Shown here: one piece after another, positions 5,566-10,811 of the stretch
How the letters are laid out: every line of letters starts with the position of its first letter
Position numbering within the stretch: the stretch's first letter is position 1
Translations under genes and position numbers: made by a program
NCBI GenBank assembly: GCA_017537925.1
Contig: JAFYJW010000072.1
Coordinates: 1-38,221 of the forward strand
Direction of reading: 5' to 3'
DNA length: 38,221 nucleotides
DNA from: Synergistes sp.
Lineage (GTDB): Bacteria > Synergistota > Synergistia > Synergistales > Synergistaceae
Notes under the pieces: model-generated
What the model saw: only the letters and a program-made list of their open reading frames with translations
Database searches by the model: none
Told to the model about the DNA's origin: nothing

Positions 5566-8409
5566 TTACTTCTTTTCCTCAAGAGCGGCTTTGATTCTTG
5601 CCGGGATGGCAGGAATTGTCTTCACGCGGGCTCCGCAGGCGGAGTATATCGCGTTGCATACCGCTGCGTGCGGTCCGGAAAGCGGCATCTCGCCTGTTCC
5701 TGAAGCGCCGAACGGTCCGAGAGGACGCGGCACTTCTGAGTGGATCAGCGTGAGGTCGTCTGTAATATCTTTGATGTACGGGAAGCCCATCGTTACGAAG
5801 TTGTTGTACTTCGACTCGTCAAGGAAGTCCTCGGAAAGCGCAAGCCCGATGCCCTGCGCAACTCCGCCGTACTGCTGGCCGTCAACGACGAGGTAGTTGT
5901 TGATGACTCCAACGTCGCCGACAAGGACGAACTTCTCGCAGTGCGCCTTGAATGTCTTCATATCAACGGAGACCATCGCGAGGTTGACGGCAAACATATG
6001 GAATCCGAACGGGATACCTTTACCGCTGTCTTTGTCGTTGCCGCAGCAGCTCTCTACAGTACCGTCCCTGTGCAGTATCTGCGCTTTGAAGTTGCCTTCA
6101 TAGAATGTCGGTATGCCTTCGGCTTTCATTTCCGCGTATGTGCGGTATGTGCCGTCCGGCTTGCGCATCGCATCAAGAAGCTTTTTGCAGCTGTCGACTA
6201 TCGCGTTGCCGGTCATCGTCTGAGAGCGGCTTGCCGCGGCTGCGCCGCTGTTCGGGCAGCGTGCGGTGTCGTTCATGAAGAGCTTTATCTGATCGGGGGC
6301 GAGTCCCAGCGGTTTGAGCGCTTCATGCGCCGTACCGAGCGTACCCATGTCGGCTCCCTGTCCGTGATCTTCCCATGTGTTGAAGATCATTACGCTTCCG
6401 TCTTCAAGCAGTTCTATATTGCTGTTGGACTCGTCCGCTCCGTCGTCGTTGGCGTTGTAGATGCTGACCGAAACGCCGACGCCGTATTTCTTTTCGGGCG
6501 TCGAAAGCTCCTTAGCTTTCTTTTTCATTTCCTCATATATCGGACGCGCCTTTTTCATCATGTCGGGCAGCGGGAATACTTCCGGCGCATAGCCTGACGG
6601 GAACTGTCCGCGCGGATTCTCCGTGAACGGCTCCCATTCGAGCAGGTTCTGCTCGCGGAAATCGAACGGATCCATGCCGCATTCGTACGCAAGCATATCC
6701 ATAGCCGTTTCGGTGCCCCAGTATATCTGCGGCGAGCCGTAAGCGCGGAAAGCGGAGCTCCAGCGGTGGTTGGTCCATACAGTGTATGCGGTTACGCGCA
6801 TATTGTCATACGCATAGGGCGAGAAGAAGAACTGACCGCTCTTGTTCGTGAGGTCGTTCGCGGATTCGCTGCACGGACCGTGGTCGATCCAGCACTTGCT
6901 CTCTACTCCTATCAGCTTGCCCTTTTCGTCCGCGCCCGCTCTGATGTGCATGAACGACGGCGAGCGCTTCGGGGTGCGCTGGTTGTGCTCTTTCATGTTG
7001 ACGCGCATGTATACCGGGCGTCCGGTGGCCATCAGCGCTACTGCAAGATACTGTTCGTTCGTGACAGTCGTCTTGTAGCCGAAGGAGGCGCCCATGTTGT
7101 TTTCGATTATGCGGATCTTCGACGGCGGAAGTCCGAGACCGCGTGCAAGCTTGACTATCGCGAAGTAGATAGCGCAGGATTTGGAGTGGATCGTAACGCG
7201 TCCCTCTTCGTCGTAGTACGCATATCCGCAGTCGGCCTCAAGAACCATATGCGGCTGGCGCGAGCTGTAGAACTCATCGTCCACCTTATGCGGGGCATTC
7301 GTGATCATGTCATGCGGATCCTCGCCCTTGACGAAGCAGCGCTTGTTCCATGCGTTCGGCATACCGTCGATGCCAGGGCAGTCGTCGAATACGCTGACCG
7401 CATCCGGCTTGATGGCGTCGCGGACGTCGACGAGCTCAGGCAGCGGCTCATAGTCGACCTTGACCTTCTGTGCAGCGGCGCGAGCATGCTCTTCGTTGTC
7501 GGCTACTACTACCGCTACGATATCGCCCCACTGACGGATCTTGTCGCCCTCTTCGACCATTATGCGGCGCTCCCAGCCGTCGGTGACGGCGGAATCACAT
7601 CCTACCTGGCCGCGGAGGCGGTTTGTGCCCTTGACGTCTTTATATGTGCAGACCTTGACGACGCCTTCGCACTTCTCTGCTTCGCTTATGTCGATCTTGT
7701 TGACCTTTGCGTGGCGCACGCCCTCAAGAGCATACGGATATGCGAAGAGGAACTCCTCCGGGAGCTTCAGGCGATCGTCGTCGCCGAAATCCCAAAGTCC
7801 TGTAGCTTTGAATACCGCGCTCGGACGCGGATAGCTGGAGTTCCAGATCTTGTCGCCGGGTTTGTACATTTTGGCGAGATCTTCGATCTTTTCTTCGCCG
7901 CGCAGTATCGCAGCAGCCTTCATCACCGCGTCGACTATCTGCTTGTAGCCGGTGCAGCGGCAGGCCATCCAGTTCTTCGCAAAGAATTCGCGAACTTCTT
8001 CGCGGGTCGGGTTTTTGTTCTCGTCAAGCAGCGCCTTGCCGCACATGATGAAGCCGGGTGTGCAGAAGCCGCACTGGATAGCGCCGCAGACTATCATAGC
8101 CCACTGCAGGGCGTGCAGGTTGGCCGGTGTGCCGACGCCTTCGATCGTAGTGATCTCGGAGAACTCGGGAACGTTCTTCCAGCGCGTGATGCACGCGCGG
8201 ACGACCTTGCCGTTCAGGATGACGTTGCAGACGCCGCACTGACCGCAGTTGCAGCCGCGCTTTGTGCCCGTCATCTTCAGCTGTTCGCGCAGAACGGTCA
8301 GCAGCGTCACATCGGGTTTGCCGATAACTCTGCGGGGAACGCCGTTGATCGAAAGCTTCTTAACGACATAGCTTCCTTTGAGCTGCTCTTCTGTCATTTC
8401 CTTTGCCAT
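5566..8409 (-). CDS. Molybdopterin aldehyde oxidoreductase (xanthine oxidase family, fused 2Fe-2S subunit)
   Basis: The 947-residue chain combines an N-terminal iron-sulfur region with the large Moco-binding region and lacks the FAD domain of xanthine dehydrogenase. This is the layout and size of the Desulfovibrio-type aldehyde oxidoreductase (Mop). Cluster one ligands are C53, C58, C61 and C73 (C-x4-C-x2-C-x11-C), with an extra C55. Cluster two ligands are C113, C116, C150 and C152. The Moco region carries FRAYGSPQ and the C-terminal GTGEMPLSG, whose glutamate is the expected catalytic base. It should hydroxylate an aldehyde or a heterocycle in the cytoplasm and pass electrons through the clusters to a separate acceptor. 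The ATG at 8409 has GAGGAG 8 nt upstream. No Moco-insertion chaperone or FAD subunit is adjacent. A palindromic operator-like repeat overlaps its promoter. Confidence 0.92.
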   Translation of the reverse strand: MAKEMTEEQLKGSYVVKKLSINGVPRRVIGKPDVTLLTVLREQLKMTGTKRGCNCGQCGVCNVILNGKVVRACITRWKNVPEFSEITTIEGVGTPANLHALQWAMIVCGAIQCGFCTPGFIMCGKALLDENKNPTREEVREFFAKNWMACRCTGYKQIVDAVMKAAAILRGEEKIEDLAKMYKPGDKIWNSSYPRPSAVFKATGLWDFGDDDRLKLPEEFLFAYPYALEGVRHAKVNKIDISEAEKCEGVVKVCTYKDVKGTNRLRGQVGCDSAVTDGWERRIMVEEGDKIRQWGDIVAVVVADNEEHARAAAQKVKVDYEPLPELVDVRDAIKPDAVSVFDDCPGIDGMPNAWNKRCFVKGEDPHDMITNAPHKVDDEFYSSRQPHMVLEADCGYAYYDEEGRVTIHSKSCAIYFAIVKLARGLGLPPSKIRIIENNMGASFGYKTTVTNEQYLAVALMATGRPVYMRVNMKEHNQRTPKRSPSFMHIRAGADEKGKLIGVESKCWIDHGPCSESANDLTNKSGQFFFSPYAYDNMRVTAYTVWTNHRWSSAFRAYGSPQIYWGTETAMDMLAYECGMDPFDFREQNLLEWEPFTENPRGQFPSGYAPEVFPLPDMMKKARPIYEEMKKKAKELSTPEKKYGVGVSVSIYNANDDGADESNSNIELLEDGSVMIFNTWEDHGQGADMGTLGTAHEALKPLGLAPDQIKLFMNDTARCPNSGAAAASRSQTMTGNAIVDSCKKLLDAMRKPDGTYRTYAEMKAEGIPTFYEGNFKAQILHRDGTVESCCGNDKDSGKGIPFGFHMFAVNLAMVSVDMKTFKAHCEKFVLVGDVGVINNYLVVDGQQYGGVAQGIGLALSEDFLDESKYNNFVTMGFPYIKDITDDLTLIHSEVPRPLGPFGASGTGEMPLSGPHAAVCNAIYSACGARVKTIPAIPARIKAALEEKK

Positions 8410-8462
8410 TTGAAAACTCCTCTCGAAATAATTTGTAGTGCCGGATTTTCAAAGCTTTTTTG

Positions 8463-8482
8463 TGCAACATTGTTGCAACAAT
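8463..8482. promoter_or_regulatory. Operator-like TGCAACA repeat and palindrome
   Basis: TGCAACA occurs at 8463-8469 and again at 8474-8480, exactly 11 bp apart, or about one helical turn. The overlapping 14-mer ATTGTTGCAACAAT (8469-8482) is a perfect palindrome, and 8463-8477 is a second palindrome around a single T. The cluster spans the predicted start of transcription of the molybdoenzyme gene, a typical repressor position. The binding protein is unknown. Confidence 0.6.
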
Positions 8483-8484
8483 AG

Positions 8485-8513
8485 TCTATAATCTTTATAT
8501 AAATAGTACTTAA
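8485..8513 (-). promoter_or_regulatory. Promoter of the molybdoenzyme gene
   Basis: On the minus strand: -35 TTAAGT (8513-8508), a 17-nt spacer, and -10 TATAGA (8490-8485), predicting a start near 8478, inside the palindromic repeat. The hexamers are imperfect, as expected for a regulated promoter. Confidence 0.5.
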
Positions 8514-8610
8514 GTTCACATCGCCAGACAACTTTTAGGTATGAAAAGAAACTTTATGCGCTTTTTATTTATATTTATGCTCTATAAAATTCACACACAA
8601 GTAAATTCAC

Positions 8611-8647
8611 AAAAAAAAATGAGGCTCTGTTTCTCTTGCCTCATTTT
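8611..8647 (-). terminator. Intrinsic terminator after the response regulator
   Basis: A 10-bp stem (AAAATGAGGC, 8616-8625, with 8638-8647) and a 12-nt loop are followed on the minus strand by a run of nine T residues. It lies 35 nt after the response regulator stop and just before the molybdoenzyme promoter, so the two genes are separate transcription units. Confidence 0.85.
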
Positions 8648-8681
8648 CCCTGCTTTTTCTGTTTTATTATCTGCAAAAAAT

Positions 8682-9377
8682 CTACAAAAGAGCCATTCTG
8701 TAACGCTTTTCCGGCCTTCCTACGCGCCTGTAAGCATATTCCACCGCCACACGCTCGCTCATTGTCAGAAATTCAAGATAGCGGCGCGCGGTCGAACGTG
8801 ATATCCCCAGTTTCTCGCCGACCTCTTCGGCCGAAAAAGCCGCGTCGTGTTCTTTAAGGAATGTTTCTACATCGTTCAGACACTTCAGCTGCAGCCCTTT
8901 CGGTATCGAACGGTTGCTGTTCCACGAAGGTTCCCTGCTCTTCATGGCAAGAAGGGTGTCCAGGTCTTCCTGTCTCCACGGACGAGTTCTTCCTGTAAGC
9001 GAATGATGATATATCTGATAATTTTTCAGCGCGGTACGCAGGCGGTCAAAAGAAAACGGCTTGACCAAAAATTCAAAAACGCCTGCGCAGACGGCTTTGC
9101 GCACAAGCGCGGGATTCTCTCCCGACGAAACGACTATGTAATCTGTGTGGGGGTACGATCTGCGCAGTTCATCGAGGTGGGCCATCGCGTCGAAATCTTT
9201 CATGAAGAGATCAAGCAGAACAAGATCGACGTCGACGCATTTCATGGCATCAAACAGCTCTGCGCCCGTCGCGGCGCACTTCAAAAGGGTAAAGGCGCTG
9301 TCATTTATGACTATGTCTGAATACAGCTTCTGCAGCAACGGATCGGACTCTGCTATCAGGACCTTGAGACTCTGCAT
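8682..9377 (-). CDS. CitB/DcuR-type response regulator
   Basis: The 231-residue protein has a receiver domain (about residues 4-120) and a C-terminal helix-turn-helix domain. Receiver residues are in place: acidic pair E10 and D12, phosphoacceptor D56 in VLLDLF, S84/S85 in the switch strand, and K106 in VKPF. The helix-turn-helix AEEVGEKLGISRSTARRYLE (about 183-202) is typical of the CitB/DcuR/DpiA group, whose members control uptake and use of di- and tricarboxylates. No histidine kinase gene is next to it, which is unusual because the group normally pairs with a CitA/DcuS kinase. The ATG at 9377 is preferred over GTG at 9383, because AGAGGA would be only about 4 nt from the GTG. It has a strong promoter and a long structured leader. 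A target could be the molybdoenzyme promoter, but this is inference. Confidence 0.88.
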   Translation of the reverse strand: MQSLKVLIAESDPLLQKLYSDIVINDSAFTLLKCAATGAELFDAMKCVDVDLVLLDLFMKDFDAMAHLDELRRSYPHTDYIVVSSGENPALVRKAVCAGVFEFLVKPFSFDRLRTALKNYQIYHHSLTGRTRPWRQEDLDTLLAMKSREPSWNSNRSIPKGLQLKCLNDVETFLKEHDAAFSAEEVGEKLGISRSTARRYLEFLTMSERVAVEYAYRRVGRPEKRYRMALL

Positions 9378-9387
9378 CTTCACTCAT

Positions 9388-9588
9388 CCTCTCTCCACCG
9401 ATACGCCAACGGATGCGGAAGAATCGGCGAAAAGAGAGCTTCGCGAAGACCACAGAAATATTACTCTGCCAATCCTTCCCCTTTCCAAAACGGGAGGCGC
9501 CTTCGTTTCCAAAGACACCCATTGGTCTTGCTCCGTAATATAAATATCCGCAGGAGTTTCGACTCGGGGATTTATTCTTTTTATTTCA
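9388..9588 (-). ncRNA. Structured 5' leader of the response regulator (candidate cis-regulatory RNA)
   Basis: On the minus strand an outer helix pairs 9541-9535 with 9464-9458 (ATATTAC/GTAATAT) and, after an internal loop, an inner helix pairs 9525-9521 with 9473-9469 (CCAAT/ATTGG). The inner helix closes a three-way junction. Arm A (9519-9496) is ten uninterrupted pairs, three of them G-U, capped by GAAA, a GNRA tetraloop. Arm B (9495-9477) is UCCC/GGGA plus UUU/AAA across a G-G mismatch. Further on, CTCTC (9437-9433) and CGCC (9429-9426) can pair with GGCG (9407-9404) and GAGAG next to the Shine-Dalgarno sequence (9395-9391), which would hide it. This looks like an aptamer plus expression platform; no known class is assigned. 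Confidence 0.5.
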
Positions 9589-9737: not shown

Positions 9738-10811
9738 CTAAAGTGGGCGGACAGCGGTTTTTACTGCGGTAAACCATCTGTCGTCTTCGCCCTGTCCGGA
9801 GAAGTAGAGCTTATATATGCCCTTTTCGTCTTTTATCAGAGAGCCTTTGTAGAGGCTTTTTTTGCAGAATGAATATTTTCCTGCCTCAAAAATATCGCCT
9901 GTCACGTTCCAGACAGTCCCTCCGTCTCTGCTCGATGCAAAGGCTATGCCTCTGCCTGACCTGTAATTCCCGGCATGCTGCCAGCAGAGCGTCATAATAA
10001 GCTCCTCTGAGTCTCTTTCTGTTATGTCTATATGCCAGGGTTCCGTACCCTGAGGCAGGCCGCGTATCTCTGCCGGCACTGCGCCGCTCCATTTGTCAAC
10101 GCTGCCGCCTGCGGCTCTCATAACGGAAAAGACCCCGTCTTTTCCGTTAACGTACCAAAGCAGATACTCTCCCTCTTTTTTTATCAGAGCGGGAGACATT
10201 ATGACAGCAAGGTCCCTGCGGTCATGGAATTCCGTCATAATAACGGAGGGGCGGCTCCAATTGACGCAGTCATCCGTCTCCGTAAGAAGGAGCTGTACCG
10301 AGGCGCCCTTTCCCATATATTCGGTGCGGCGGTAGATCATGATAACTTTGCCGTTCTCATAATGCAGCATGGGATCCGAGTTATAACCGACCCAAGAGGA
10401 CGGAGGAGCTATGACGGGAGACTTTCCCCCCTGCGGGATGCGCCATTTCTCTCCGTCGTCGCTCACAAGAAATTCGGGGTTTTCAAAATATTCTATGCCG
10501 CGCGGCAGCGGAGTGAGGGCCATAATGTAACGCCATCCGCCCTTTCCCGCTCCTTCCGGGATATACCTTACGCACGGGTGTACACACTCGCCGAAGCCGG
10601 ACGTACATGAAAGATCAAGTATGCGGATATTCTGCGGCAGGTCCTCCGCGTAAGGCAGCGGGTTGCCGCAGGAATAGAGCCTGCGCGCAAGCTCATGCTG
10701 GTTTTTGTTCCAGAGTTTCTTAAGATGCCAGGAAACGCTCCGCGGGAAAAACGGCCATCTGACAGCCGCCTGCATTCCTATACGCAGCAGCTCGCGCTTT
10801 ACTTTGTTCAT
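9738..10811 (-). CDS. Five-bladed beta-propeller glycosidase-like protein
   Basis: The 357-residue protein looks like a GH43/GH32/GH62-type five-bladed propeller. Repeated blade signatures are visible: FLVSDDGEKW, SDPMLHYENGK, LLLTETDDCVNWS, ALIKKEGEYLLWYVNG, FASSRDGGTVW and YKLYFSGQGE. An N-terminal stretch of about 70 residues is basic and helical-looking, without a clear signal peptide. The fold binds or cleaves glycans in relatives, but I cannot assign catalytic acids with confidence. It is the last gene of the glycosyltransferase block, and its start overlaps the stop of the upstream GT4 gene (ATGA, 10808-10811), so it is made together with it. A role in trimming or recognising the glycan built by the cluster is plausible. 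Intracellular location, inferred from the lack of a signal, would be unusual for a hydrolase. Confidence 0.7.
   Translation of the reverse strand: MNKVKRELLRIGMQAAVRWPFFPRSVSWHLKKLWNKNQHELARRLYSCGNPLPYAEDLPQNIRILDLSCTSGFGECVHPCVRYIPEGAGKGGWRYIMALTPLPRGIEYFENPEFLVSDDGEKWRIPQGGKSPVIAPPSSWVGYNSDPMLHYENGKVIMIYRRTEYMGKGASVQLLLTETDDCVNWSRPSVIMTEFHDRRDLAVIMSPALIKKEGEYLLWYVNGKDGVFSVMRAAGGSVDKWSGAVPAEIRGLPQGTEPWHIDITERDSEELIMTLCWQHAGNYRSGRGIAFASSRDGGTVWNVTGDIFEAGKYSFCKKSLYKGSLIKDEKGIYKLYFSGQGEDDRWFTAVKTAVRPL

Follow-up and report, generated by a model that had tools for sequence, protein, structure and literature searches.

A P3-lacking Moco-class aptamer before response regulator genes of Synergistota, probably acting as a translational OFF switch

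The Moco RNA motif (RF01055), described by Regulski et al. (2008, PMC2408646), combines the helices P1, P2 with a receptor region and P4 with a GAAA loop with a GGAAAGG strand, and its known members precede genes for cofactor synthesis, transport and enzymes. P3 was lacking in 58 of 176 of these RNAs, which were associated with tungsten-cofactor genes and were proposed to be Tuco sensors; deletion of P3 from the E. coli RNA abolished regulation and caused no switch of specificity (PMC2408646). The E. coli moaA riboswitch, which has P3, carries the Shine-Dalgarno (SD) sequence within P1, an arrangement read as repression (PMC2408646). Control of a response regulator (RR) by a riboswitch has been described for cmrRST of C. 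difficile, where a c-di-GMP riboswitch sets the level of the regulator through positive control of transcription (PMC12548384).

The locus considered here lies in a 38,221-nucleotide stretch of Synergistes sp. DNA (contig JAFYJW010000072.1, the window), where a leader on the minus strand runs up to an RR gene with its ATG at 9377. A preliminary description had placed this leader at 9378-9588 and read it as an aptamer plus expression platform, naming the Moco class as the first to test by an Infernal search. A scan with all 4227 Rfam families bears this out: RF01055 is the sole match above its gathering score in the window, cmscan aligning model positions 1-135 to the leader at 61.7 bits against a gathering score of 36, and the remaining matches around the leader fall far under their respective thresholds. 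The P3 columns of the model are deleted in this alignment, and by its sequence the leader is a Moco riboswitch of the RF01055 class in its P3-lacking form. The window leader shares the P1, P2, P4 and GGAAAGG core with the described motif and differs in standing before an RR gene and in having a spacer of about 80 nt with pairing elements of its own, which sets its SD about 80 nt away, unlike that of E. coli moaA. With cmrRST it has in common a riboswitch acting on response regulators, whereas the aptamer and ligand of that system are unrelated. The features of the locus are collected in Table 1.

Table 1. Features of the leader, the response regulator gene and the following gene in the window
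Feature	Position	Strand	Basis
Promoter TTGACT-16-TATAAT, extended TG	9622-9595	-	Consensus scan, 11/12 matches
Moco riboswitch aptamer (RF01055), P3-lacking	9462-9581	-	cmscan
P1 5' strand, UCCCC	9566-9570	-	Model alignment
P1 3' strand, GGGGA	9477-9481	-	Model alignment
P2 (GUC...CUCC / GGAG...GAC), including tetraloop-receptor region and loop	9525-9563	-	Model alignment
P4 with GAAA tetraloop	9496-9520	-	Model alignment
GGAAGGAUUGG, P1 end and tail, one strand of candidate anti-P1 helix	9469-9479	-	11 bp with 9427-9417
UUUUCGCCGAUUCUUCC, 17-nt putative switching block of expression platform	9417-9433	-	Pairing alternatives
Predicted SD-hiding hairpin, CUCUCUUUUCGCCGAU with AUCGGUGGAGAGAG	9388-9438	-	Minimum-energy folds, inferred
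SD of the RR gene, GGAGAGAGG	9388-9396	-	Read from sequence
DcuR/DpiA-like response regulator, 231 aa (Response_reg + HTH_64)	8682-9377	-	Pfam, NCBIfam
Intrinsic-terminator-like hairpin and T run, 3' of RR gene	8616-8647	-	-15.6 kcal/mol, z -3.2 for 8605-8675
Molybdopterin-dependent aldehyde oxidoreductase, next gene	5566-8409	-	NF045668, 1388 bits

The leader has the bounds of a 5' UTR, lying between the promoter and the RR start codon, and the position of the promoter would place the transcription start near 9588, in agreement with the extent first given for it. This promoter, upstream of the aptamer, was the only strong match in a scan of the locus, and a similar TTGAC/TATAAT-like pair is found immediately 5' of the aptamer in close orthologues; a start downstream of 9458, at odds with such a leader, is unsupported. 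The description of the leader as highly structured holds in part: it folds better than its shuffled versions (-74 kcal/mol), but only moderately so (z -2.2, with 7 of 200 shuffles equally good), and the match to the RF01055 family is far stronger evidence than this thermodynamic signal.

The helices proposed by eye fared unevenly. The ten-pair arm with the GAAA cap is real and corresponds to P4 of the Moco fold. The two helices thought to close the structure both fall outside that fold: ATATTAC/GTAATAT (9541-9535 / 9464-9458) occurs in the window only, its ATATTAC being located in the P2 loop, and at the closest orthologue locus (G002, RR 92-93% identical) ATATTAC is present with no GTAATAT downstream, while G001 has neither; CCAAT/ATTGG (9525-9521 / 9473-9469) is kept within the genus only, in 3 of 21 leaders. 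The covariation test named in the preliminary description speaks against this pair of closing helices. The second arm, UCCC/GGGA, competes with the conserved P1.

Conservation instead follows the helices of the Moco model, and P1, P2 and P4 covary across 29 RR leaders. Standard pairs occupy 490 of 522 cells in the Moco helices of these leaders, compared with a mean of 440 and a maximum of 450 in 500 shuffles that ignore relatedness, and both-side changes occur at 9 of the 18 pairs of the fold; such counts refer to sequences (28 of the 29 leaders are distinct) and not to independent events. Pairs were counted by script at anchored positions, because two MAFFT alignments had shifted the GGAAAGG strand by one column in some rows. 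The C-G core of P1 is paired in every leader, one of its pairs changing from C-G to U-A in 10; the outer pairs of P2 covary; and the GAAA tetraloop of P4 is kept in 29/29, with both-side changes at several P4 pairs. The 5' side of the P2 receptor reads CCUAA in 16 of the 29 and CCUG or CCUAC variants in the rest, the window having CCUGCG...UACGG.

RF01055 was found in 47 of 61 genomes, comprising the window's own and its relatives, and 130 matches were analysed by clustering the open reading frames downstream and annotating representatives. The RNA precedes the RR gene in 21 of these 61. When 188 Synergistota genomes were compared by coordinates and new loci were rescanned, the number of genomes in which it stands before a DcuR/DpiA-like RR gene rose to at least 29, in five families; at the level of sequence, a Moco aptamer between promoter and RR gene is a conserved arrangement. 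A scan of GTDB contigs placed close RR homologues in Synergistaceae, including Synergistes sp., and the RNA was found at four rescanned GTDB loci, which are already within the at least 29 genomes. It is present at all 19 close RR orthologues (at least 69% identity), and response regulators of 40-48% identity (families f5 and f3) are mostly without it, so that the pairing of RNA and regulator has been gained or lost within the phylum.

Two further RF01055 matches are short and divergent, scoring 40-42 bits, and their loops read GUAA and GCAA instead of GAAA (G041:C2:627877-627987 and G037:C91:43324-43434). An aldehyde ferredoxin oxidoreductase is encoded by the next gene in G037 and by the second gene in G041.

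The regulator carries PF00072 and PF20714 above cut-off, and its equivalog scores are under the cut-offs for DcuR and DpiA (111.6/262 and 87.8/264 bits, respectively); it thus appears to be related to DcuR/DpiA and, by the equivalog test, not orthologous to them. No kinase domain of the DcuS/CitA type (SPOB_a, PF14689) was detected in the window's own genome, whose completeness is 100. The next gene encodes a molybdenum-cofactor enzyme, as first described, and the terminator-like hairpin after the RR gene, which a pattern scan missed owing to its 12-nt loop, indicates that the oxidoreductase gene is probably transcribed separately. Neighbours of the RR gene vary by family and keep one theme, viz. 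aldehyde oxidoreductase and cupin in f1 and f10, modABC, xdhC and a moeA-like gene in f10, and aldehyde dehydrogenases in f2 and f10. Directly before the oxidoreductase gene of the window (8410-8681) no RNA-family match and no decayed Moco RNA were found. The window's genus is without the P3-containing Moco RNA that other f1 genera carry between a palindrome and the oxidoreductase start.

This palindrome, TGCAAC-N3-GTTGCA, lies upstream of the aldehyde oxidoreductase gene in many Synergistota, with further sites at L163:3410 and L164:2182; the window copy (8463-8477) is the only exact one in its genome. It was considered as an operator for the RR and is not favoured in that role, since in f9 genomes lacking an RR match it likewise precedes oxidoreductases, and it also precedes a FUR-family gene. 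In G184 it stands just before that gene (PF01475), a 45% homologue of which occurs in the genome of the window, and the palindrome is a candidate FUR-family operator.

How the aptamer might act on the RR gene can be read from the RNA that follows it. In the window's family the RR gene begins 57-114 nt past the aptamer, and predicted folds agree with the earlier suggestion that downstream RNA is able to pair with the SD and start region. The 17-nt block is identical in the three genus members and the rest of the spacer diverges. Its 3' part can pair over 11 bp with the P1 end and tail, giving a candidate anti-P1 helix that exceeds expectation from shuffled spacers in the genus (p 0.004, 0.004 and 0.012). 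With this helix formed, the SD-to-AUG region is predicted to be unpaired at 0.40, 0.53 and 0.46, compared with 0.19, 0.25 and 0.26 in the free ensemble. The anti-P1 state lies 3.8-4.5 kcal/mol above the closed, SD-hidden state, which is the predicted minimum even without ligand, so that opening would have to depend on the order of folding or on unmodelled factors. An anti-P1 element common to the whole family was also considered and rejected, as the pairing did not surpass shuffles in the majority of other genera, and the detailed platform is therefore claimed for the window's genus only. In the distant relatives G037, G046, G007 and G045 the arrangement resembles that of E. coli moaA, the SD of the RR gene being the P1 3' strand itself (AAAGGAGG or close) and the start codon falling shortly before the model match ends.

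These arrangements suggest that the riboswitch is, with good probability, a translational OFF switch, and the joint reading, of a P3-lacking Moco-class aptamer kept before RR genes and acting in this way, is likewise probable. Plentiful cofactor would repress translation of the RR: its binding would close P1, and the spacer block would then help to hide the SD and AUG. In the absence of cofactor, the block would instead be captured by the P1 tail and initiation would open.

The opposite sign of control, in which cofactor binding frees the SD and the regulator, being produced in the presence of cofactor, goes on to activate the molybdenum oxidoreductase, would make sense of a cofactor-using enzyme as the next gene, and the closed fold is indeed predicted already without ligand. 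It is nevertheless unlikely, since an SD inside P1 in four relatives permits OFF control only, since P1 cannot form together with the anti-P1 helix, the one of the two that opens the start region, and since known members of the class repress (PMC2408646). Slightly more improbable still is control of transcription, by termination or Rho access, in place of translation; the SD-pairing elements speak against it, as does a pattern scan of the window in which no terminator-like site was found between aptamer and ATG, even though terminators occur in part of the class (PMC2408646) and a GC hairpin and T run, seemingly a terminator, follows the first of two tandem RNAs elsewhere in the same genome. 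That the leader might be a protein-binding RNA, as the preliminary description had also allowed, the protein being the cofactor sensor, is very improbable and not needed. Owing to the instability of Moco, direct ligand binding by this class is unshown, and Regulski et al. left a protein possible (PMC2408646), but the same core precedes tup, modA, moeA, oxidoreductase and RR genes, with no link to one regulator. The translational OFF switch is retained as the preferred reading.

Considering which cofactor this switch would respond to, the absence of P3 and the gene context make Tuco the rather likelier ligand, as the two other RNAs of the genome precede a tungstate-transporter operon. All 29 RR leaders have a linker of 3-5 nt between P2 and P4 in place of P3, as judged by inspection of this linker. 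In the own genome, two tandem P3-less Moco RNAs about 220 nt apart (C37:9623-9744 and 9962-10082, L033) stand before a tupA-like operon, an arrangement found in 12 of the 61 genomes; TupA is the best family match but scores under the curated cut-off (313.7 vs 400 bits), and the label of the tup-type genes rests on this one member. The same genome encodes one AFOR_N protein (above cut-off) and three MoCoBD_1 proteins, which makes use of both metals plausible, and a profile search of it returned no PF00384 protein. It shares with the P3-lacking 'Tuco' subtype the TupA operon with its P3-less RNAs and an AFOR protein as well as the missing helix, whereas the enzyme next to the RR gene is of the molybdenum type and Tuco sensing by the subtype is itself a hypothesis.

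A competing possibility, less likely and still substantial, is that the same riboswitch senses Moco or both cofactors, that loss of P3 brings no change of specificity, and that the RNA reports general sufficiency to an oxidoreductase regulator. It gains from the molybdenum-type genes linked to the RR (oxidoreductase, modABC), from the outcome of P3 deletion in E. coli (PMC2408646) and from exceptions to the P3 rule, P3-less RNAs preceding 14 xanthine-dehydrogenase-type aldehyde oxidoreductases, one ModA-like gene and two MoeA-like genes. P3 is, however, absent in 53/53 RNAs before tup-type genes and present before modA (2/2) and moeA (2/2), and a P3-less RR RNA coexists with a long P3-type oxidoreductase RNA in 13 genomes (G009, G011, G014, G015, G016, G021, G022, G027, G029, G030, G034, G164 and G165), on one contig in 10 of them; in G164 and G165 the P3 form of the oxidoreductase RNA was read from its length only. 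P3 is also present in 12 of the 26 RNAs before xanthine-dehydrogenase-type aldehyde oxidoreductases, all 12 in the window's family f1. The P3-containing oxidoreductase RNAs of G016, G014, G029 and other f1 genomes have an extra hairpin in the P5 loop (CCUCCCGGGAUGC...GCAUCCGAAUUGG), and none was seen in P3-less ones.

With Tuco as the preferred ligand, a metal-choice circuit may be tentatively proposed, though it is more doubtful than the ligand itself: a P3-less Tuco RNA would set the level of the regulator and a P3-containing Moco RNA would act on the neighbouring oxidoreductase in most close relatives, two subtypes reading two metals in one locus. The chances are about even that the RR adjusts molybdenum- or tungsten-linked aldehyde metabolism, cofactor shortage raising the regulator.

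The RNA class and its P3-less subtype are already known, and what is of interest here is the RR as a target and the pairing of loci with and without P3. The literature searched, which leaves many journals uncovered, yielded no report of an RR gene preceded by a Moco RNA; the expectation that a regulator would be an unusual target stands for the Moco class within that literature and does not extend to riboswitches at large, for which cmrRST is a precedent (PMC12548384). Tuco sensing by P3-less RNAs has been based on gene association since 2008 (PMC2408646), and the 13 genomes that carry both forms, in 10 of them near each other on a single contig, provide a ready-made direct comparison of Moco versus Tuco. 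A regulatory gene is also added to the targets of the class, and through this response regulator the level of a cofactor would become the level of a whole regulon.
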